Assembly (NCBI RefSeq): GCF_026210795.1
Contig: NC_089458.1
Span: 2,186,001-2,250,000 of the forward strand
Source: Rhizophagus irregularis
Lineage: Eukaryota > Glomeromycota > Glomeromycetes > Glomerales > Glomeraceae
DNA length: 64,000 bases
Direction: 5' to 3'
Shown: positions 1 through 44,789 of the stretch, one piece after another
Layout of the letters: each line of letters begins with the position of its first letter
Numbering within the stretch: the first letter of the stretch is position 1
Notes under the pieces: generated by a model
Told to the model about the DNA's origin: nothing
What the model saw: the letters and a program-made list of their open reading frames with translations, nothing else
Databases searched by the model: none
Made by a program: the position numbers and the translations under genes

Positions 1-751
1 AATACCACTTGAGAAGACCCGGCATTTCAACATGTGGGTAACCTTTCCAAAAATATGCAGTATCAAACCAATAAGGTGATTTGGACATTATATACTAAAT
101 CAATTCAATATGCAAGGAAAGAATTCATAAGCCCAATCAATTAATTCATTCTTAATTCGTCAAACCCTTTCTAATATATATTTCTTTATATTTCTTTTTA
201 CTTCACTTGAAAGAAAGGCAAATTTGGGAGTAAGACAAAATCAATTGTGGCTAAATTCCCGGGTCTTAACTTACCATACCAAGTGTCCAGAAAATTGAAT
301 AATACAAAAACGACCATCCTTGTTCAGCAAACCTTGTTTGCTGACTAACTTTCTTTATTCCGCCAAGTTTTACTGTAGGTATAAGTATGTATTCCATTAT
401 AACAGCACGTAAGAAAGTAAAAAGTGCAATCCAAGTGAAAATAAGATACACGTCGTCTTTTCCTTTCTTATAAAGGCCGGTTTTTGGATCTCCATGCTGA
501 AGGAAAAAGAATTTTTCTGCTCCGGGGAAAATAAAATATGCTAATATAAGAAATGCTAAAACACGTATCGGGAAACCTAAAGGTCATAAAAGAATCAAAA
601 ATTATTTTTTAGGTCTAAACAAGTAAAATTTTCAAGATATTTTACCTATTTGATGGTTCACAAGATAGTTGGCAATTTCTACCAAAAAGGTTATCTTTTT
701 AGCTGCTTTTTTGTTCGCACCATCAGTTTGAAGACTGATTGTTTTTAACAT
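1..751 (-). CDS. LAG1: Ceramide synthase (LAG1/LAC1 family), 5' part
   Basis: Joins sphingoid bases to acyl-CoA in the ER membrane to make ceramide. Three exons are visible: 646-751 (start MLKTISLQ), 275-576 and 1-94, the last cut by the window edge. The joins are in frame with GT/AG ends. The middle exon has two hydrophobic segments and the family signature RFAEQGWSFLYYSIFWTLG. The third exon continues with SPYWFDTAYFWKGYPH, which directly follows that block in fungal LAG1 proteins. The catalytic double-histidine part of the TLC domain would lie further downstream, outside the window. Known from the family: function and ER location. Inferred: the start, because it is the first ATG in frame after the upstream AT-rich region. 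No frameshifts are seen, so it is probably functional. Confidence 0.93.
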
Positions 752-1959
752 TATAAGTTCAGGAAAGAAAAAATTCGGATGATATTTAGATAAATAACTA
801 TTATTCCAGTAAAATAAAAGTTAATCGTTCAAAAACAGAGCCGAATTTCTCACACGTTTTTGTTTAGATAATTGTGACTGTTAAAGTGTTCGAAGTGTAA
901 AAGGGTAGATCGGCGATCACGGGACAGGCCAACATAAAGAATGAAAGGTAATTATTCATTTAAAGGTTATTAAGTTTTTTATTGACCAAATAAAGAAATT
1001 TGATCATTTAAGGGCTTTAAAGTTTTTTATTGATCAAATAGGGAAAATTTGATCGGATTAGGTAGCCAATCATCTATAAACTCAAAAGAGGTGATTGGTG
1101 CCAACTACCAATTCTACCATCGCATATTTCTTGGGGAATTGTTAAGGAACATGATGCAAAACTTTCACGGTAAATTCCGTTGGGTGTTCATTGCAGGAAC
1201 CTTTAGCAGCAATTGCCGGTAAAAGAACAATTCCCATCTTCAACCTTAAGGAACTTATACGGCTGTACCTAATTATTTATCTCTTTTGATCGTTTACAAC
1301 ATAAATTTTGGATAAACCTATAGTGATGTTGGGTGTAATTGAGTATCGTTCAAAATATTGAGGTTCTCGAATTCGGGAGACATATATTTTATAGTAATAC
1401 GGATTATCATCAACTTCATATATCATATAAATACTTAAAAAATCGTTTATAATCACTACTACGCAACTTTGCCCATTTCAGCCCTCTTGAATCCAATTGT
1501 TTGAAACTAATGCTTTAATATGAAAAATGCAAAAATGCAAATATATATAATAATATCATAGCATTTTGTCAGCTCAGGTAAAAACCGAAAGCATTTAGGG
1601 TAGTAACTTTAGGGGTGAAAAATACAAGATCGGTAATCTTTCCTTATTTTAAACGTCTAATTACTTGATTTCGGTTTGTTATATTGTTTTATAATTTAAA
1701 TCTTTATTATCACAGTAATAACTGTCTAAATTAAATTTTCTGATACAATTTGAAAAATAAATCTACGTATATTGTTTTATCATTATTATATTAATTACGA
1801 GCTTTAAATTAGCTACATGTGAAATTTGTCTCTCTAATTGAAAAAAAATTAATAAGTTTAAATTTTTTAAAAAACGAAATGTGCTATATTAAAATAAAAT
1901 ATAAGATGAAAATGTCTGAGATAAATGCGTTTATTATTGCAAAAATGAGTTTTATCTAT
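752..1959. other. Intergenic region between LAG1 and beta-tubulin
   Basis: No convincing gene. It serves as 5' flank of the ceramide synthase and 3' flank of beta-tubulin. Around 962-1060 a segment of about 50 bp is present twice in tandem with divergence (both copies contain AAGTTTTTTATTGA and AAATTTGATC). The rest is AT-rich sequence without repeats I could place. Confidence 0.6.
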
Positions 1960-3918
<1,959 letters not shown>

Positions 3919-4187
3919 TTAAATAAATCTCTTTGAAAGTGAATCAAAGGAGTGGCCAGACCAAAAAAAATCGATGAAAAATGTTTTTAACAATTTCGTT
4001 GTAGTACTGTACGCGTTCGACAAAGAGCACGAGCACGAAACTAGATATGGAGCTGCAGACGGTGGATTATTGCAGAAATTGTCAAAACACCAATCAAGAA
4101 AAAGTGTTCACTGTTGCTTATTTTATATTAGTCCAAAATTTTACCTAACCATTTCGATTTTATATAATTTTAGTGTTAATTATTAAA

Positions 4188-4316
4188 ATGCCGTCCCGGT
4201 GTCCCCCTATTTCTTTCATACATAACATTTTTGATCAATACGAATTAGTAGTGACTGAGGTCCTAGGCCATCAAGCTAAAGTCGTACAAGCGAGAATGAG
4301 CTCTCGTAAGGCGTAA
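4188..4316 (+). CDS. Short unrecognised ORF, possibly an exon or gene fragment
   Basis: A 42-codon frame beginning MPSRCPPISF and containing YELVVTEVLGHQAKVVQARM. The spacing of LG, A, V and A faintly recalls the start of a protein-kinase domain, but the glycine loop is incomplete and the frame stops at once. GTAAGG near 4305 could be a splice donor, in which case this would be an exon of a larger gene. An open frame continues downstream to about 4421 in another phase. I cannot assign a function. It could be chance. Confidence 0.2.
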   Translation: MPSRCPPISFIHNIFDQYELVVTEVLGHQAKVVQARMSSRKA

Positions 4317-4768
4317 CAATCTATATGGTATTACAATCATCTGGACAACAAAAAATTAAGATCAAATATAAAGGCCATATTTTAAATCGCAGAGATCAAT
4401 ATTCTATTACTCTATTCGCCTAAATAAATAAGCAAAAACGTGCAACAAATTTATATTAAATGCATCTGCAATCCTGCACTGGATCGACTATAACCCCTTC
4501 ATTACCATTTATATAAAATTGCGGAGGATGCAATTAATACAAATATTTACTTTAATTTTGATAGGTGATCAACAAATTTTAACTTTGGTCAAGATTGACA
4601 AAATTTCTATTCGACAACTTAATATTTATAAACTAAAAATTATTTTCAAATATTTCAAATTAAAGAATACCTTTAATATTTTACAAAAGTCTTACAAATA
4701 AAAATAATTTTTATTTAGAGTTTATAAAACAATTATTAATTAATTTAATAATAGGGTTTAAAATTTTA

Positions 4769-4880
4769 ACGCACCCCCCTTTTTTGGAAATTTTTAAATA
4801 GTAAATTTGTCGATCATTTATGATCACGTTATGATCAGCAAATTTACTATTTAATAATTTCCAAAAAAGGGGGGTGCGTT
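4769..4880. mobile_element. Small foldback (MITE-like) element
   Basis: A near-perfect inverted repeat. The left arm at 4769-4808 starts AACGCACCCCCC and reads into GGAAATTTTTAAATAGTAAATTT. The right arm at 4840-4880 is its reverse complement and ends GGGGGGTGCGTT. The loop of about 30 bp contains TGATCA repeats. No coding content. A second short palindrome (GTTGCAAC) sits just outside the right arm. Target-site duplication not resolved. Confidence 0.75.
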
Positions 4881-4940
4881 GCAACGCACCTGCGTAAAAT
4901 TATTATTTCCATAATAATAATAATAATTTTTAATTGAAAA

Positions 4941-5083
4941 TTGCTAAAGCTCACCAGCGGTAATTGTCACCATACCAGCATTAAGATGCACTTTTGGCCT
5001 GAATTAAAATTTAACAAACCACTGACCGGCATTACATCATAAATCCACCACTGGTAACCGTCACCACTGGTGATATTTAGCAA
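4941..5083. mobile_element. 143-bp element with about 32-bp imperfect terminal inverted repeats
   Basis: The left end TTGCTAAAGCTCACCAGCGG and the reverse complement of the right end, TTGCTAAATATCACCAGTGG, match over about 32 bp. The inner part TCACCAGTGGTGA resembles the CCACTGGTGGT ends of the MULE at 59.8-63.1 kb, so this may be a deletion derivative of a related family (inference). No ORF. Confidence 0.6.
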
Positions 5084-6570
5084 TACCCTTTTAATTAATG
5101 TATATGTAGTACAGTTTATTAAGAGGATTTCAATTACATCCATTAATATATTGACCACATACTAAATGAAACATATTTAGCAATAAAATGAATAATATTT
5201 TTGAAAAGTAAAAAAATTTTCCAAAATCCTATAAAGTATTTTAATTAATTAAAATAATCAGATAAGTCAAGTTTTAATTGGCAACTTCTAGTATACTTAT
5301 AAATAAATATGAAAATATGATTAAATAAATATAAAAATGCGTTATATATAATACTTTATATTAGTTAATATTTAATAAAAATGAATTATTAATTATTAAT
5401 AAAATTTAAAAATTGAAAATTGAATTTTACTAGTAAACATATATATAGTCAAACTTCTATAATTCTGTCCAGATATAATACAGTCAAAATTACAAAATTT
5501 TTCTAATAAAAAAATTAAATATTTATTCAAATCATATGATTTTATAATTTTAACTAAAATTAAAATATATAATTAGAATTATAATTTATATATAGTCAGA
5601 CCCCCATATAGTCACCTAATTGGTTCCCATAAAATCAGTGATTGTATAGGGGTGTATTTATATACAGGTACTATATCTTAATTTTGGCCGAAATTAGTAA
5701 ATTATAATTTATAAAATTATTTGATCACTACAGATATTTCCTTTTTTGGTGATAGCCATTTCACAAAAAAATTTTTTGCCGATTTTGTGTTGGAATGTCA
5801 TGTAACATTAATTCCTAAAAAGGAAAAAAAAATTATGTGTTTCATAATTCTAGGCAAAATTGCTTTTTGGCCAAAATTATGATGTGATTAATAGAAGTCT
5901 AATCACTAATAGAAATGATAGGATTATGCGATGATAGTGATTATAGTCAAATTGTAATTATAAATGGGTAATTTGATAGTATTTAAAACCATTTCTCAAA
6001 ATCAAGTTCTTATAAAGAGGTGCACTATATGTACATGATTGATGGATGTTCGACTGTATAATTAAGTGAGATTTTATTATTAATATAAATAATATAGGAT
6101 ATTGTTAAATGCTACTTAGTAGTAATTATCGCTACTGGTAATTATCATTACTTAATTCAGCAATTTTGCTGAAGTTATGCTAGTTTATAATTTTGGCCAA
6201 AGTTGCAAAATTTTAATTTAAATAATAAATCCCTATGAAAAGTCTTTATATTTTAGTATCAATTTTAATTCACAATATACTTATAATATATCCAAAATAT
6301 ACCTAAAATACTCTTAAAATATGCTTTTAATGTACTTGTTTTTTGCCCAAATACTTAAATTATATTTAAAATATACTTAAAGAAATTAACTAGGTAACGC
6401 CTCAGGTATTTTCATCTGACCATGTGATTTATTACATAATCACCTGATTTAATTATTAAGCTTTTTGATCAATTATTTTGATTTTTCATGATTTATAATT
6501 TATTTATTTCTTTTTCTTTTACTCTAACCTTTCTTACATTATAGCTACCCAATAATAAATATAAATCACG
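5084..6570. other. AT-rich transposon flank without genes
   Basis: No coding region. Several copies of the palindrome-like motif TTTTGGCCAAAATT or close variants occur (about 5684, 5868, 6195). They probably belong to decayed element ends upstream of the MULE relic that follows. Confidence 0.5.
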
Positions 6571-6574
6571 AAAT

Positions 6575-9310
6575 TATTGATTCTAGCAGTGAAGAAAATG
6601 AACCTATTAATGAATATTTTGATTCTAGTGATGAAGAAAATGATTTTTATTATATGATAATTACAGGTGCAAAGTTTTATACTTGGGAAAAACTTGAAGT
6701 TTGAGTTATTTTGAACGATATGCTTTACAGAAAGGATTTTCTTTTAAAAAAACAAGGATTAAGTATTATTTGCATTAAGAAGAAATAAAAGGTTTAACAG
6801 CTTATCAGAAAAAACTTTATGTTAAGCGAAGGACATATGAGTGTACTCATTCTGGTAATCATGTATCAAAAAAGATTATTAATTTTGATAATCAAAGAAA
6901 TAGAGGTAGTTATTAGGTTAATTGTTCTTGACATGTTAATGCAACTAAACCTAAAAAAGAAAATACCATAGGTATTACATCTGTTAAACTTAAACACAAT
7001 CATGTTATGAATCCATTAATTGCAGAAATAGCACCTAAATTTAGAAAATTTACTCTAGAAATGATTACCAATGTTTAATTTTATGTGAAACATGGTATAT
7101 TTAGCATTACACAGATATATCCATTACTTCGAGCAAAGTATCCTGATCATCTAATTTTAAAAAGAATCTATATAACATTATTCAAAAAGTTAAGGTTGGG
7201 CAAAAGGAAGTTGTTAAAAATGATAGTGCAAATTTTTTACATTATCTTTAGAAACAACAAGAACCTGAATGGTTCTTTGAATTTTGCTTATCTGAAAATG
7301 ATCAAAGACTAACATCATTAATCAGGATATCACCTGATCAATGTTCTTACTATATTAGATTTCACGAAGTCTTAATTTTTGATTGTACAGCTAGAACAAA
7401 TCATTATGATATGGTTCTATGTTTATTTCTTGTTGTTGATAATAATACAAGATCATGATTGATAGCAAGTGCATTGCTAGAAGATGAAACAGAAAACTCA
7501 TTTATTTGGGTATTACAACAACTTAAAAAGGTTTCAAGTGATGTTTATCCTCGTGTTATATATATATACTGATTGTGACCCTGCTATGGCAAATGCTATT
7601 AGTTTTATTTTCCCAACATCAAAGTACAACTTGTGCATATTTCATATTGATCTTAACCTTAAAAATAATGTGAAACCAAAACTTGGATTGCAAAAATTTA
7701 GTGAATTTCAGGCTGAATTTTTTTCATGCTGTATTAAATAGTCTTGTTTATGAGATTTTTGAATCAAAATGGAAAATTTTAATTGAAAAATATCCTGAAA
7801 TATCAAAATATTTGAAGCGAATGCTTGAATCAACAAAGGAAAATTGGATTACTTGCTATATAAATGAAATTTTCAATTGTAGAATAAATAGCACTTAAAG
7901 AATAGAATCCCTTAATCATCTATTTAAAGCTGCTGTCCAAAAAAATTTTCTTTTATATCAACTCGCCAATAAGATTCAAAAAATACTCAATAATGAAATG
8001 AAATATGAACGTATAATCAAAATGAGAAATATTTTACCTTGACAAACTTTGGATGATATACCTTCAAAATTTTTTGTAGGTATTAATGAAATTTGTAAGG
8101 AATTTTTAACTCTACACATTCTTTCAGCAATACAAAATCAGATGAAGCATTCATTTTTTTACGATGCATACTTGGTTGATAAAGATACTATTTAGCAAGT
8201 AAGTTAGGTTTTAGAGTAGCTTTAGGATTAGAATAGCGTTGAGTTAGGGTTAGGATTAAAATTAGGGTTAGGATTAGAGTTAGGATTAGAGTTAAGGTTA
8301 GGATTAAAGTTAGGATTAGAGTTAGGGTCAGGATTAGAGGTTAGAGTTATGGTTAGGATCCGTTTATGGTTTAGAAGTGAATTTATTATGAATTGAAAAA
8401 TTTTATATGGTTGCTAATTTTGTTGTTTCTTTTATTTAGGTTAATAATACAGATGATAATAAAGGTTTTTGGAAAGATGATTATGATGCAACACAAATAT
8501 TACTTCAAACTATAATCGGAAAGATACAAAATTTATTAATTGTTGAAATTTGGAAAGTTAAGCTAGAATTGTTACAAAAAAAATCACATTTTGTAGTTTT
8601 GATGGCAGATAGAAGTTTTTCTTGTACCTGTAACCTTTTAATATTATATGGTATTCTATGTAGACATTTTTATAGAATTCTTAGAAAGAGTTCACAAGCA
8701 AAATTTCATATTTCTTTAATAAATTAGCACTAATATCAAGATTCGAAGTTAAATATTGATGATAAAGAAATAGCTTTATTAGATGTTATATCAATTGTTG
8801 AAGATCATAATTTTTCAGCAGTGGTTCATGAAGAAATCAATTTTAATTATATTCATCATGTTCGTAGTGAACAAGTTTATACAGAAAAGCTTCAAGGAAT
8901 CATTTCGGCAAAATTAAAATATGGAAAAGCATTCGGTTTCGCAAAAAAGGCTTTAGACTTAACACAAAAATTAGATTGTTATAATGAGTTAAATGGATTA
9001 CTTCAAACATATATTGAAGAAAAACAACAAGAATTACTTTGTAATCAAACAACTGATGAAAATACTGCAGGAAATCAACAAGAAAATATTAAATATTTTA
9101 ATCCAGTAACTTCAAGACATCATGAATGACCTTCAGGTCGATACTTAAGTGAAGAAGAAACTTTAAGACAGAATAAGAAATAAAAGAAAACTAAAGGCAA
9201 CTTAGAAGTTAATGGAAATGATAAGAAGGAAAGAAAGTGTAAAGGATGTAGGAGTACAGGTCATAATTTGCGTAATTGTAAAAAAAGAATCCTTAGCAAG
9301 AAAAATTGAT
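6575..9310 (+). pseudogene. Decayed FAR1/MULE transposase, relic 1
   Basis: A Mutator-like transposase with a FAR1-type DNA-binding domain, broken by many stops and frameshifts. In order: an acidic N terminus (SSSEENEP), FAR1 zinc-finger remnants around 6810-7000 (KRRTYECTHSGNHVSKK, then KLKHNHVMNP), the MULE catalytic region around 7360-7700 (IFDCTARTNHYDM, TDCDPAMANAI, NLCIFHIDL), an intron at 8199-8439, the stretch DYDATQILLQTII after it, a SWIM-like segment near 8610-8680 (CTCNLL..CRHF), and a C-terminal zinc knuckle CKGCRSTGHNLRNC near 9238. The order of domains matches intact FAR1/MULE proteins such as the one at 60.0-62.6 kb. Terminal repeats were not identified. Clearly non-functional. 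Confidence 0.85.
8199..8439 (+). repeat. Degenerate telomere-like repeat inside an intron of MULE relic 1
   Basis: Between a GTAAGT donor (8199) and a TTTATTTAG acceptor (ending 8439), positions about 8200-8360 are made of variants of TTAGGG/TTAGGA (TTAGGGTTAGGATTAAAATT, TTAGGATTAGAG and so on). The coding frame of the transposase resumes after the acceptor, so the tract occupies an intron. Confidence 0.75.
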
Positions 9311-12545: not shown

Positions 12546-12640
12546 CCTGTCATGCGTTCTTTCATTTTCTAAAAAAAAAAGAAATATGATTAATGCATTA
12601 TGAATTATAATAAATAAAACCTTATTTCTTATCATAATTC

Positions 12641-12731
12641 AAACTCTAACTCTAACTCTAATCCTAACCCTAATTCTAATTTTAACCTTAACCCAAATCC
12701 TATCTAATCCTAATCCTAACCCGTAACTCTG
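12641..12731 (-). repeat. Second degenerate telomere-like tract
   Basis: CCCTAA-type repeats on the plus strand (CTAACTCTAATCCTAACCCT and variants). Its position relative to relic 2 corresponds to the telomere-like intron of relic 1. Confidence 0.7.
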
Positions 12732-39374: not shown

Positions 39375-40661
39375 ACATCAGGAAATTTTATAGCGCAAAA
39401 AATTGTGTAAGTTTATGATTTTGTAAGTTTACGAAAGTTTATGGCATAATATTTCAAAAAATTTCAAAATATTACGTAAGTTTACAATTTCATAAGATTT
39501 ATGTGATATTACGGTTAAAATATTACATAAGTTTTCAATATCGTAAGATTTATGCAATATTAAGGTCAAAATATTCTGCAAATTTACAAACCTGTAAACC
39601 TGCGTAATATTACAGTTGAAATATTTCAAAAATTTACGAAACTGTAAACCTGCGTAATATTACAATTAAAATATTTTGAAAATGTACGAGACTGTAAACC
39701 TGTGTAATATTACAGTTAAAATATTTCAAAAATTTACGAGACTGTAAACCTGCGTAATATTACAGTTAAAATATTTCAAAAATTTACGAGACTGTAAACC
39801 TGCGTAATATTATGGTTAAAATATTTCAAAAATTTACAAGACTGTAAACCTGCGTAATATTACAGTTAAAATATTTCAAAAATTTACGAAACTGTAAACC
39901 TGCATAATATTATGGTTAAAATATTTCAAAAATTTACGAGATTGTAAACCTGCGTAATATTACTATTCGATCGTTAAAGCTGCGTATGTAGTAGAACGTA
40001 TACAAGGGGCATGTGATACTATTGAATAATTAAAAATAATATAAACACCTTTTCTTTTATATAAACACCTTTTTTTAAGTTTGGGAAAGCAAATTTATTT
40101 TTATTTATGAATTTTTTATTATTTACAATTTTTATATTAAAAATTAAAGTAAATTCTAATTTTTATTATAACTTAATAAAAAAATACACATTTGATACTT
40201 GTTCGTTACTATTTTATAAAATAGTACCCAGGCTGTATGGTATGAATGTCAGTATTAGTCACAGCCCAAAAAAATGCGAGTCTTCAGCCGATATTTGGTA
40301 TAGATTGGACCCAACTACTCACTTAATAAATAATAAAAAAATAAAAATAATTATCTTTCACGATACGTAGGTAAGTTTCTCCTTGCCTTACGATCATCAT
40401 GCGTGACTAAAATTGATCAAATTTATCAAATTTAAAACATGAATGTAAATATTAATTATAAATTTTATTATAGTATAATTACCCAACCTCCCAAAATCTT
40501 GTTCTAAATTCACGATAATATTTTTAGCCGGTACGCATCTACAGCTATCATCCAGGATTACCATTACGATAAAGGACATAGTTCTAAATATCAAAATCAG
40601 TTTGAATATTTGATAAATACATTTAATTTATATAAATGTAATTTTATTTATTTACTTACAT
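39375..40661 (+). repeat. Tandem duplication, unit 1 (1.29 kb)
   Basis: Starts CATCAGGAAATTTTATAGCG and ends TTTATTTACTTACATG. It contains a 50-bp satellite array (39430-39965, about ten units of the type CTGTAAACCTGCGTAATATT plus ACAGTTAAAATATTTCAAAA and TTTACGAGA) followed by unique sequence with ATAGTACCCAGGCTGTA. The same order returns from 40662. No convincing gene. Confidence 0.75.
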
Positions 40662-41181
40662 GCATCAGAAATTTTATAGCGCAAAAAATTGCGTAAGTTT
40701 ACAATTTCGTAAGATTTATGTAATATTATGGTTAAAATATTACACAAGTTTTAGATTTATGCAATATTATGGTCAAAATATTTTGAAAATTTATGAAACT
40801 ATAAACTTGTGTAATATTATGGTTAAAATATTTCAAAAATTTACGAAACTGTAAATTTGCGTAATATTACGGTTAAAATATTTCAAAAATTTACGAGACT
40901 GTAAACCTGCGTAATATTACGGTTAAAATATTTTGAAAATTTACAAGACTGTAAATCTGTGTAATATTACGGTTAAAATATTTGAAAATTTACGAGACTG
41001 TAAATTTGTGTAATATTACGGTTAAAATATTTTGAAAATTTATAAGACTGTAAACCTGTGTAATATTACGGTTAAAATATTTTAAAAATTTACGAGACTG
41101 TAAACCTGTGTAATATTACGGTCAAAATATTTCAAAAATTTACAAGATTGTAAACCTGCGTAATATTACTATTCAATCATT

Positions 41182-41618
41182 AAAGCTGCCACTAAGGTTG
41201 CTTGCTGAAACCTTCTTAATAACTGCTGAAACCTATACAGAAAATGCCGAAACTATATTAAATCATATTAAAAATCCTGCCGAAACTTTACCAAAATGCC
41301 AAAACTCCTATTTGCCGAAACTGCCGAAACCCTGCCAAAACTATAGTAAACATATAGTAAAATCTTGCCAAAATTTATCGCAGAATTTTGGAGAGGTTTT
41401 GGCAAGCAACCTTAGCTGCCACACGTCAAATGATCAAAAATAGGCAAAAAAATGGCACAAATCGCATAAACTATTCACAAATTTGTATAAACTATTTACA
41501 AATAGTATAGGTTAATTCGTAAATAGCCAAAAACAGCCAAGAATAGCTAAAAATAGCCAAGAATAGCCACTGCTTTTCGCGCCATTTTTTTTGCCGATTT
41601 TTAGCATTTCGACCTGTG
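41182..41618 (+). mobile_element. CACTA-like MITE (CACAGGTC family), split by a hAT MITE
   Basis: Compared with duplication unit 1, an insert begins CAC..ACGTCAAATGATC and ends GCATTTCGACCTGTG. Its inverted ends CACACGTCAAATG and CACAGGTCGAAATG match. The 3-bp flank TGC is on both sides, as expected for CACTA/EnSpm insertions. The hAT MITE at 41193-41414 sits three bases inside its left end. Confidence 0.7.
41193..41414 (+). mobile_element. hAT-type MITE, 222 bp
   Basis: Ends TAAGGTTGCTTGCTGAAACC and, reverse complemented, TAAGGTTGCTTGCCAAAACC. Exact 8-bp duplication GCTGCCAC at 41185-41192 and 41415-41422. The interior is made of GCCGAAAC/GCTGAAAC motifs. Same family as 55039-55282 and the outer ends of 42048-44075. 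Confidence 0.88.
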
Positions 41619-42474
41619 TGCGTATGCAGTAGAACGTATACAAGGGGCATGTGATACTATTGAATAATCAAAAATAATATAAACACCTTTTCTTTTATAT
41701 AAACACCTTTTTTTTAAGTTTGGAAAAGCAAATTTATTTTTATTTACAAATTTTTTTATTTACAATTTTTATGTTAAAAATTAAAGTAAATTCTATTTTT
41801 TATTATAACTTAATAAAAAAATACACATTTGATACTTATTCGCTACTATTTTATAAAATAGTACCCAGGCTGTACAGCGTGAACGTCAGTATCAGTCACA
41901 GCCCAAAAAAAATGTGAGTTTCCAGCTGATATTCAGTACGGACTGGGTCTAGCTACTCACTTAATAAATAATAAAAAAATAAAATAATTATCTTTTTCTA
42001 CGATACGTAAGTAAATTTCTTCTTGTTTTATAATCATCACGCGTGACTAATGTTGCTTGCCGAAACTAGGGAGTTTTGGCATGCCAAAACTGCTGAAACT
42101 GCCGAAACTAGGTTTCGGCAAGCAACTGAAAATGCCGAAATGCCAAAACTGCCAAAACTGTTTCAGCATTTTGGCGCAGTATATCATATGATATACATAT
42201 AGTTTTGGCATTTCTTAATTCAGTTAAACTCTGATCAGTTTTTTAACTGATCATTGATAATCTAAAACGGTTTTTTAAACCGTTATATATCATTATTTTT
42301 TTTTAAAAAAAAACTTTTTTAACGTTAAAAAGATAATTTAACGTTGAATTTTATGATTGCCCGCCCACCCTTTATTTTAACGTTAGTATATTTTACTAAC
42401 GTTAATTTTTTTTAATTTTTTTCTTGAATTGTATTAAAGAAACGTACAAACGTTTCTATTTTCTTGTTTTTTAG

Positions 42475-43210
42475 GATACTGGACTCCTAGGAACTTGAAA
42501 GAACCTGGACTTTGGTAAGTATATGGGGTACTGTGTTTAAATTGTGTTAAAGAAACGTACTAACGTTTCTTTTTTCTTTTTCTGTTTTTTAGGTTACTCA
42601 GACTCCTAGGAACTTGGAAGAATCGGTCTTTGGTAAGTATATGGGGTACTGTGTTTAATTGTGTTAAAGAAACGTACTAACGTTTCTTTTTTCTGTTTTT
42701 ATTAGGATACTGGACTCCCAGGAACTTGGAAGAACTGGTCTTTGGTAAGTATACGGGGTACTGTGTTTAATTGTGTTAAAGAAACGTACTAACGTTTCTT
42801 TTTTCTGTTTTTTTAGGTTACTGGACTCCTAAGAACTTGGAAGAACCGGTCTTTGGTAAGTATATGGGGTACTGTGTTTAATTGTGTTAAAGAAACGTAC
42901 TAATGTTTTTTTTTTGTTTTTTTTAGTTTACCGGACTCTTAGGAACTTGGAAGAACTGATCTTTGGTAAGTATATGGGGTACTGTATTTAATTGTGTTAA
43001 AGAAACGTACTAATGTTTCTTTTTTCTGTTTTTTTTTAGAATACCGGACTCCCAGAAACTTGGAAGGACCGGTCTTCGGTAAGTATATGGGGGTACTGTG
43101 TTTAATTGTGTTAAAGAAACGTACTAACGTTTCTTTTTTCTGTTTTTTTAGGTTACTGGACTCCTAGGAACTTGAAGAACTCAAACTTGGGATACTTGAT
43201 ATGTAAGCTT
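42475..43210 (+). repeat. Tandem array of seven exon-like/intron-like modules
   Basis: Exon-like segments: 42475-42514, 42593-42632 (40 nt each), 42706-42744, 42817-42855, 42927-42965, 43040-43078 (39 nt each), and 43152 onward (longer, to about 43200 where GTAAGC follows). Segments between are 78, 73, 72, 71, 74 and 73 nt. Each begins GTAAGTAT and ends in T-rich sequence plus AG, with CGTACTAACG (a yeast-like TACTAAC branch motif, TACTAAT in two) 30-36 nt before the AG. The branch motif lies in a 10-bp palindrome AAAGAAACGT/ACGTTTCTTT. In one phase the 39-nt segments read Y-W-T-P-R-N-L-E-E-P-V-F-G without stops. Confidence 0.85.
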
Positions 43211-43664
43211 AAGGAAGGGGGAAGGAATCTTTTTTTTTAATATATTGAAGAAACGTTATAACGTTCCTTCTATTTTTTTTGTTTTTTTTTACCAGACTTT
43301 TTTATATGGAAAGTTTTATTTAATTGCTTTGAAGAAACGAGTGTGTTTTTTATAGTATACCATTGTTTATAAAAATTGGTTTATTACAATAAAATAAATA
43401 ATATAATAAAATATTTAATTATGTATATATATATTGGAATTAAATCAATGAAAAAAAATTATTATAGAATGCTGAAATTATGCCGAAACTATATCAAGAT
43501 GTTAGTATTAGCTATGCTGAAACTATGCCGAAACTTGCAAATAGTTTCGGCAGTTTCAGCATTTCAGCAGGTTTCAGCGTTTCGGCATTTCGGCAGTTTC
43601 AGCACTAATAAAAGAGTTTCGGCTTTCAGCACTAGGCCAAATGAGTTTCGGCAGACAACCTTAC

Positions 43665-44068
43665 CAGCGCACAAAAAGTTTTTGAAAAAATACCAGAAAT
43701 TTTCTGAAAAAATCAAAAAATTCTGGAAATTCATTTTTTGCATCAGAACATGTGACTGGAACCAATAAAAAAAAATTTTTTTATTTAATTGGCAATTCGG
43801 CATAAATTCTAAAGTCTCAAATATTTTCATTATGTCTTTATTACAATATGGATTTAAGCATTAAAGAATTAATAATAGCTTGACTCAAGAAAATGAGAAT
43901 TAATATTTTAACGTTTTTATTATATATTAATAAAATTCCGGCATTCATAAAATTTACCGGAAATTTGCTGTGCCATGTCTGAAAAAATTCTGGGTTTAAA
44001 AAATTTTTACGGATTTATCAAAAAGCTTTCGGAAAATCCGGCAAAATTTAAATAGATTTTGTGCGCTG
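43665..44068 (+). mobile_element. hAT-type MITE, 404 bp (CAGCGCAC ends)
   Basis: Ends CAGCGCACAAAAAG and, reverse complemented, CAGCGCACAAAATC, flanked by an exact AACCTTAC duplication (43657-43664 and 44069-44076). It inserted across the right terminus of the 42048 element. Non-coding. A truncated relative is at 26261. Confidence 0.88.
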
Positions 44069-44789
44069 AACCTTACGCGTGACTAAAATTGATCAAATTT
44101 ATCAAATTTAAAATATGAACGTAAATATTAATTATAAATTTTATTATAGTATAATTACCTGGCCTCTCCCAAATCTTGTTCTAAATTTACGATAATATCT
44201 TTGGCTGGTACGTATCTACAGCCACCGCCCAGGGTTATTATTATGATAAAGAACATAGTTCTAAATATCAAAATCAGTTTGAATATTCAATAAATACATT
44301 TAATTTATATGAATGTAATTTTATTTATTTACTTACATGGTAATCCCTGACGAGGTTCCTCTACTTTTGGCTGTACTATTGCCCAAAAACCCTCATTCGA
44401 AATATTCTATTTATTCTGATTCAATTAAATGGATTGGTTAATTTGAATTTAAATTCTTTTTTAAAGAAATTATAGATATTAATCATATGAACCTATTGGC
44501 AACAGAATCCCAAAAATCATGGTGGCTTTTACCATTAATATTATCACAGGTCAAAAAACGATCTATCTCACACATATCGGATACCTATATATCAGTGACT
44601 AATTAGGTACATATCGGGCATTTTACATATTAACAACATATCGGATACCCGATTTGTCACATAATGCGCAAATTTCAAATATGGTTAAAAAAATGTAAAT
44701 TACCAAGTGTCCGATATCCAAACTATTAGTCACTGATCCATTATCTAATATATATCGGTCACCGATATTCGTACAATCTTTAAAAAAAT

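Follow-up and report, generated by a model that had tools for sequence, protein, structure and literature searches.

We consider it probable that a tandem array in the 64,000-nucleotide stretch of Rhizophagus irregularis DNA analysed here (the window) belongs to a set of micro-exon arrays, spread across the genome, that are carried by transposons, can be spliced, do not code for protein and have structured introns. The evidence comes from the anatomy of the array and its carriers, from predicted gene models of a sister locus, from hairpins at the branch and donor sites, and from the way in which exons and splice signals change between copies.

Anatomy of the array

Positions 42475-43198 of the window hold seven exon-like units and six complete introns. 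Tandem Repeats Finder reported a single array there (42427-43181, period 112, 6.7 copies, score 1163) and the exons were re-located at the same places, bearing out the original prediction of head-to-tail modules of about 112 nt. The array and its carrier have the following features, in window coordinates:

42040..42047, unstranded: left target-site duplication CGCGTGAC, identical to 44076-44083
42048..43663, plus strand: non-autonomous hAT element with the array, ends from the 11-copy alignment
42048..42067, plus strand: left terminal inverted repeat, majority TAAGGTTGCTTGCCGAAACT, from the copy alignment
42475..42514, plus strand: exon-like unit 1, 40 nt
42515..42592, plus strand: intron 1, branch hairpin 42549-42572
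42593..42632, plus strand: exon-like unit 2, 40 nt
42633..42705, plus strand: intron 2, branch hairpin 42666-42689, fold z -1.4
42706..42744, plus strand: exon-like unit 3, 39 nt
42745..42816, plus strand: intron 3, branch hairpin 42778-42801, fold z -2.3
42817..42855, plus strand: exon-like unit 4, 39 nt
42856..42926, plus strand: intron 4 (TACTAAT), branch hairpin 42889-42912
42927..42965, plus strand: exon-like unit 5, 39 nt
42966..43039, plus strand: intron 5 (TACTAAT), branch hairpin 42999-43022
43040..43078, plus strand: exon-like unit 6, 39 nt
43079..43151, plus strand: intron 6, branch hairpin 43113-43136
43152..43198, plus strand: exon-like unit 7, ATATGT in place of the donor GTATGT of six other copies
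43247..43270, plus strand: degenerate further hairpin GAAGAAACGTTATAACGTTCCTTC, read from the sequence, perhaps that of an eighth intron
43644..43663, minus strand: right terminal inverted repeat, majority AGTTTCGGCAGGCAACCTTA, from the copy alignment
43665..44068, unstranded: nested MITE (CAGCGCACAAAA...TTTTGTGCGCTG) at the hAT right end, with the duplication AACCTTAC on both sides
44076..44083, unstranded: right target-site duplication CGCGTGAC, pushed away from the hAT end by the nested MITE

The donor GTAAGTAT occurs in all six complete introns, which account for six of its seven plus-strand occurrences in the window; the branch motif is TACTAAC in four introns and TACTAAT in two, and the acceptors are T-tracts followed by AG. 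Donor, branch site and acceptor come in this order on the same strand six times over, in agreement with the predicted splice competence of the array. The further claim that every module carries the full set of signals stands for these six introns and fails at the two edges, as the branch motif 5' of exon 1 reads TACAAAC and unit 7 is without GTAAGTAT. The donor of unit 7 is lost in the window copy: six sister copies (L010, L011, L013, L016, L017 and L018) and the majority of the 11-copy alignment read TTG followed at the border by GTATGT. All six branch motifs sit in the loop of a hairpin, AAAGAAACGT-ACTA-AYGTTTYTTT, a feature absent from the original description. The array opens with an acceptor, and no first exon of its own was discerned.

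Carriers and further array families

As had been proposed, the array lies within a non-autonomous hAT element. Eleven copies including that of the window (family 1) run from TAAGGTTGCTTGCCGAAAC to GTTTCGGCAGGCAACCTTA, with a complete length of about 1.6 kb and ends that start TAAGG. The 8-bp target-site duplication is exact in eight of the 11 copies and agrees at seven of eight bases in L012, and was not found in L014 and L016 (scored by eye in the copies, computed for the window). At up to one mismatch, the end sequence has 1120 genome matches, compared with none in the reversed control, and these ends are shared by L053, a 4.48 kb autonomous hAT element that encodes a Dimer_Tnp_hAT domain (E 1.9e-05) and a Myb/SANT-like protein. 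These 8-bp duplications, the ends shared with a Dimer_Tnp_hAT element and the lack of any reading frame longer than 130 codons in the window element lead us to regard the identification as a non-autonomous hAT as correct. A GAAACG-N(2-8)-CGTTTC hairpin was not found on either strand of L053. Upstream of the array element, the window also holds a small hAT-type MITE at 41193-41414 with similar ends (TAAGGTTGCTTGC...GCAAGCAACCTTA) and GCTGCCAC on either side, arrays of a 50-bp tandem repeat just upstream of the element (39464-41169), and degenerate GTTAGG/CTAACC-like tandem repeats (8222-8359 and 12635-12730). The array-like locus L061 contains, at 295-537, a 243-bp hAT-type MITE that shares its ends with the array element and has the duplication ATGGGTGT.

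Other arrays were found in the searched genome (146.7 Mb, 32 contigs): among the matches listed there are at least 10 dispersed sister copies of the window element and further places at about 75% and about 66% identity (at least about 20 at 73-77%), and at least five additional array families are present. The exon 1 variant AAAGAACC is carried by all 10 family-1 copies that have exon 1, exon 5 starts with TTTAC in the seven copies with the full set, and shorter copies are without whole units. Units at the same position share private variants across copies, which indicates from the alignments that the array arose before its dispersal.

Twelve loci of family 2 were compared. Its element, 3.5 kb long in L037, has the ends CACTGGTC...GACCAGTG (CACTGG... 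type; CACTGGTCAAATG/CATTCGACCAGTG) in four of the four copies read at both ends, and holds units homologous to those of the window (GTTACCGGACTCC...) plus other unit types. AAA stands on both sides of the element in L036 and L038 and no duplication was seen in L037 and L039, so that the label CACTA-like is a guess. A third family (L028) has 37-nt exons and hAT ends, and the exons of the remaining families measure 29-32, mostly 33-35, and 45-48 nt. Because an element with other ends and further families hold homologous units, the units are shared cargo that the hAT element did not invent, contrary to the suggestion that the array had been evolved by such an element.

Several side observations were made at these loci. 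By eye, positions 1-5400 and 8970-10000 of L037 resemble a Maverick/Polinton (DNA polymerase-like and ATPase-like frames), split by the family-2 array element. A tRNA-like inverted-repeat stretch is common to the 3' parts of two array families (L037 at about 8506-8560, L045, L049 and L050) and reads GTTGTTT.TTGGAATCGAACCAACTGGAA...TTCCAAACCATTAACAAC, with one change in L049, and GGTTCGATTCC on the opposite strand; despite this suspected fold, ARAGORN reported no tRNA in L037, and Rfam at curated thresholds gave no match in L037, L009 or L028. The exon start TAGGAACGCCGGACGTTTGG has 20 exact places in the genome, with a variant in L047 (family 5).

Predicted gene models remove the called introns

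In the family-2 locus L037, 16 introns were called before any gene model was seen, and gene models were then fitted to it with introns at GT...AG pairs and exons down to 3 nt allowed. All of these models are predictions for a sister locus, and none is of the window copy. Three fitted without a mismatch: P0003 (seven introns) and P0008 (nine), which carry OCT59 names, and P0006 (nine), which carries an RIR_jg name. One or more of these three predicted models take out 14 of the 16 called introns at identical borders, and P0004, which fits with one mismatch, takes out a fifteenth. Seen from the models, 21 of the 25 introns of P0003, P0006 and P0008 agree with the prior calls; the other four have other borders (GTATTT as donor, GTTGAG as donor, AAG as acceptor, and an intron missed in calling). 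P0005 found no path on L037, and L061, the sole further locus read for placement, accommodated neither P0001 nor P0002. According to excerpts of its publication, the OCT59 annotation drew on Illumina and Nanopore RNA (PMC10234402). The reading frame of P0008 starts within a branch hairpin, which suggests that the frame was forced.

Since 14 of 16 introns called beforehand are removed at identical borders in mismatch-free models, the arrays of family 2 are likely to be spliced, as far as predicted models can tell, and we infer that the window copy would be transcribed and spliced as well. A search of the genome for intron-less copies with one 22-base family-1 exon-exon junction, at up to three mismatches, gave no match.

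Constant donors in family 1 and even decay in an old copy

If splicing is what is kept, the splice motifs should decay more slowly than the rest of the copies. The result of this comparison was divided, with unusually constant donors in family 1 and signals that decayed about as fast as the rest in an old copy of family 2. Counted over non-CpG cells with gap cells left out, family-1 donors changed in 0 of 347 cells, the corresponding counts being 92 of 1992 for exons (P 3e-7) and, for the transposon flanks, 137 of 8541 (P 0.004). With the stricter masking of CpG, TpG and CpA in the seven longest copies, the counts were 0 of 252 for donors, 46 of 1276 for exons (P 2e-4) and 67 of 4603 for flanks (P 0.03); these P values serve as guides only, because cells within one copy are not independent. 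Branch columns changed in 2.0% and acceptors in 4.5% (partly through gap placement), rates that are not below the 1.6% of the flanks, and the faster change of exons than of flanks may partly reflect mispaired units in the alignment. Among 53 introns found by anchors, the donor was kept in 51, the branch motif in 51 and the acceptor in 50, and the acceptor of window intron 2, which was scored as lost, is actually intact (TTATTAG).

The old family-2 copy L040 has 87.7% identity. Without CpG, TpG and CpA, its splice signals had changed at 15 of 177 sites, compared with 42 of 344 in exons (P 0.13) and 69 of 741 in the other intron sequence (P 0.43); over all sites the signals had changed at 20 of 195, exons at 86 of 478 (P 0.007) and the other intron sequence at 120 of 956 (P 0.22). 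L040 keeps 13 of 16 GT and 12 of 16 AG, gaps being scored as lost, and L039 keeps all 16. Single copies thus seem to decay freely, and any constraint would seem to act in the lineages that are still spreading. In exons and flanks, decay at CpG sites is 4 to 13 times faster, which is what methylated repeats would lead one to expect, and CG methylation of transposons is described for R. irregularis in excerpts of PMC8647823.

The about even decay of L040 is also what one would see if the arrays were a Pack-hAT case, that is, captured pieces of a real, fast-growing, micro-exon-rich host gene family, with the constraint acting in the source gene and the transposon copies decaying as passengers. 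We take this to be a serious alternative that may well turn out to be right. It gains support from the presence of homologous units in elements with different ends and from the MITEs with matching ends that lie beside and inside arrays. A further point in its favour is L043 (family 5), where on the minus strand at 330-500 a pyrimidine-rich stretch is followed by a possible ATG first exon (read by eye) and then by the family-5 array, making this locus a candidate transcribed source gene on its sequence. Against captured gene pieces speaks that no reading frame is kept across 98 exons of 14 parsed loci; a single-copy source gene could nevertheless have escaped, because all loci were chosen by repeat or motif matches.

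Hairpins at branch and donor sites

The branch-hairpin pattern gave 392 matches in the genome, part of which were read, compared with 8 in the reversed control. Across 14 array loci, the branch motif is enclosed by a stem at 96 of the 126 acceptors that have such a motif (net score of at least 7); shuffling the left flank 200 times gave 7.6 such cases on average and never more than 16. When left flanks were dealt among introns, 60% still paired, so that much of this signal is one shared sequence. Paired stem changes were also seen (AACGAAACGTT/AACGTTTCGTT, GAGAAACGTTA/TAACGTTTCTC and AGGAAACAT/ATGTTTCCT), along with a shortened pair, AAGAACGTT/AACGTTCTT. A finder for the branch hairpin followed by an acceptor, run on 15 loci, gave 4-24 hits per locus, compared with 0-1 in the reversed sequence and 0-3 on the other strand.

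A second hairpin, with the pattern GTAAGTTTCG-N(2-16)-CGAAACTTA, stands at called donors in families 2 and 5. It gave 273 genome matches compared with 0 in the control; the 100 of these that are listed include 13 palindromic sites, each counted once per strand, and some matches that resemble another repeat, so that the true number of donors is lower than 273. In 28 inner stretches of at least 7 nt taken from the 100 listed rows (two pairs being one site read both ways), pairing continued for 3.5 pairs compared with 0.71 after shuffling, a value that 0 of 2000 shuffles reached. Three donor-hairpin introns of family-5 loci have fold z values of -4.8 to -5.8 and a family-4 intron -2.1, and the window introns fold only modestly (z -1.4 and -2.3 in two introns).

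Such structures raise the possibility that the introns themselves are the mobile units, which would make them a tandemly stacked Glomeromycotina version of the structured introner-like elements of fungi. Excerpts of published work describe fungal introner-like elements as symmetrical or stably folded (PMC8469720), and an identical hairpin core recurs here between unlike exons; stable intron structure, an introner feature, is thus present, weakly so in the window family. We find this reading unlikely, as a second introner feature, that the intron itself moves, is not seen in family 1, where the target duplications flank the entire hAT element and not single introns. Moreover, of six branch-hairpin matches that looked solitary, four were, when read by eye, clearly related exon-intron sequence, one was a degenerate piece and one another palindromic repeat, and a clear intron of an ordinary gene was not among these six.

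No reading frame is kept across the parsed loci

As the original prediction had allowed, the exons could also encode a variable-length repeat protein. Built of the 13-residue unit GYRTPRNLEEPVF, it would be in the manner of schistosome micro-exon genes or of an SP7-type effector. Some observations lean this way: the supposedly stop-free phase is indeed open in exons 2-6, as it is in several copies, the models P0001 and P0003 read it, and lengths in multiples of 3 prevail in family 1 (4 of 5 exons) and family 6 (13 of 14). Family-1 substitutions (92 in the 38 of 55 exon copies that are free of indels) are as expected in two frames, and the third, that of the 13-residue unit, shows a weak silent excess (33 compared with 25.4 expected, P 0.039 uncorrected).

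The bulk of the evidence makes a repeat protein highly improbable. The 13-residue phase meets a stop in exon 1 in all 10 family-1 copies that have this exon, so the claim of an open phase fails there, and of the 44 exons after exon 1 in 11 family-1 copies, nine are not 39 nt long and eight of these nine break the frame. Stops close two frames of the window copy in exon 1 and the remaining one in exon 5; its array is not read through by any frame, and ATG is absent from its joined exons. Exon lengths modulo 3 are spread 33/36/29 over 98 exons of 14 loci, a set without exons longer than 90 nt and without L041, with borders from a mechanical parse that includes some doubtful rows (e.g. the first four of L040); in family 3 none of nine exons is a multiple of 3. 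At the family-6 loci the longest open stretch is 14-22 codons, shorter than the shuffle averages of 34-42, and on the same locus L037 the models P0003 and P0006 read the exons 7924-7956 and 8040-8079 in different frames. A protein search with a family-5 peptide returned no candidate, and a search of the R. irregularis genome with P0003 gave no match, which carries little weight given such short exons. The arrays are apparently non-protein-coding.

Finally, that these are plain DNA palindromes whose splice signals arise incidentally from T-tracts and AT-richness is a most improbable reading, for which one may cite the donor-hairpin matches that are symmetrical and counted on both strands or that resemble another repeat, the one palindromic repeat among six solitary branch-hairpin matches and the about even decay of old copies, and against which stand the six ordered sets of donor, branch site and acceptor on one strand and the strand-specific and direction-specific yield of the hairpin and acceptor finder (4-24 per locus in 15 loci, compared with 0-1 reversed and 0-3 on the other strand).

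How the arrays may work and spread

In our preferred reading, that of spliceable non-coding arrays, the unit mostly consists of a 30-50 nt exon and a 70-90 nt spliceosomal intron, whose donor is enclosed by a stem in certain families and whose branch site lies at a hairpin loop just before the T-tract and AG. Because the window copy opens with an acceptor and no first exon of its own was discerned, we propose that an outside promoter would transcribe the array, after which the introns would be removed. The branch hairpin may present the branch A and, by folding, take up some of the sequence that separates donor and branch site, and the donor hairpin, where present, may slow or regulate the access of U1. 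The joined exons would form a short RNA in which the reading frame is not kept. Whole units are lost or gained by the arrays, which owe their dispersal to repeat elements having ends of at least two types. An array may have been captured by hAT ends that inserted beside it, a route that is plausible given the same-ended MITEs in L061 and upstream of the window element, the one in L061 being a possible first step. As for what an element could gain from being spliced, shielding from RNA silencing is one idea, by analogy; RNAi triggered by stalled spliceosomes in Cryptococcus is a precedent for silencing linked to splicing.

A bolder version, which we put forward tentatively, is that R. irregularis has a spliceosomal intron class of its own, defined by a donor hairpin and a branch hairpin and residing in tandem non-coding micro-exon arrays. 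These would be parasites of parasites that cross between unrelated transposons, in which spliceability is kept rather than exon content, for example so that transposon transcripts pass the fungus's RNA surveillance as ordinary spliced RNA.

Relation to known systems and significance

Pack-type elements carry gene pieces. The window element resembles non-autonomous hAT and Pack-type elements in its TAAGG-starting ends, its 8-bp duplications, the existence of an element that has these ends and encodes a hAT dimerisation domain, and its foreign-looking cargo, and is unlike them in that this cargo is a tandem, spliceable micro-exon array that is also carried by an element with other ends. According to excerpts of two papers (PMC8469720, PMC9860276), fungal introner-like elements and sister stwintrons are near-identical U2-type introns with inverted-repeat structure and many copies per genome. 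Introns of the window type share near-identity, inverted-repeat structure and multiple copies with them, and differ, as far as those excerpts go, in that the mover seems to be the whole element with its exons, in that the introns stand in tandem and in the separate donor (in some families) and branch hairpins.

Schistosoma micro-exon genes, as portrayed in part of PMC10526429, have many very short exons, long introns and secreted protein products. The series of very short exons is common to both systems, and on that partial account the arrays described here are unlike them in having no kept frame, mostly 70-90 nt introns and a transposon as carrier. The SP7-like effectors of R. irregularis itself have repeat units and paralogues across chromosomes, carry a signal peptide, and have their first repeat preceded by a conserved intron, in the portion of PMC11333574 that deals with them; repeat units and several dispersed paralogues are found here too, and, compared with that portion, here introns bound every unit and no frame runs through. 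Among the matches listed in a search of the open-licence literature, no paper dealt with micro-exon arrays in Rhizophagus.

The origin of new spliceosomal introns is an open question, and the arrays offer a recent system in which complete tandem intron-exon units travel on transposons. Their donor and branch hairpins would make it possible to test cleanly how splicing is controlled by RNA structure. In R. irregularis, where unclassified repeats make up 24% of the genome by an excerpt of PMC8647823, the arrays would account for some of these repeats, and several of the annotated proteins of this fungus are probably not proteins.
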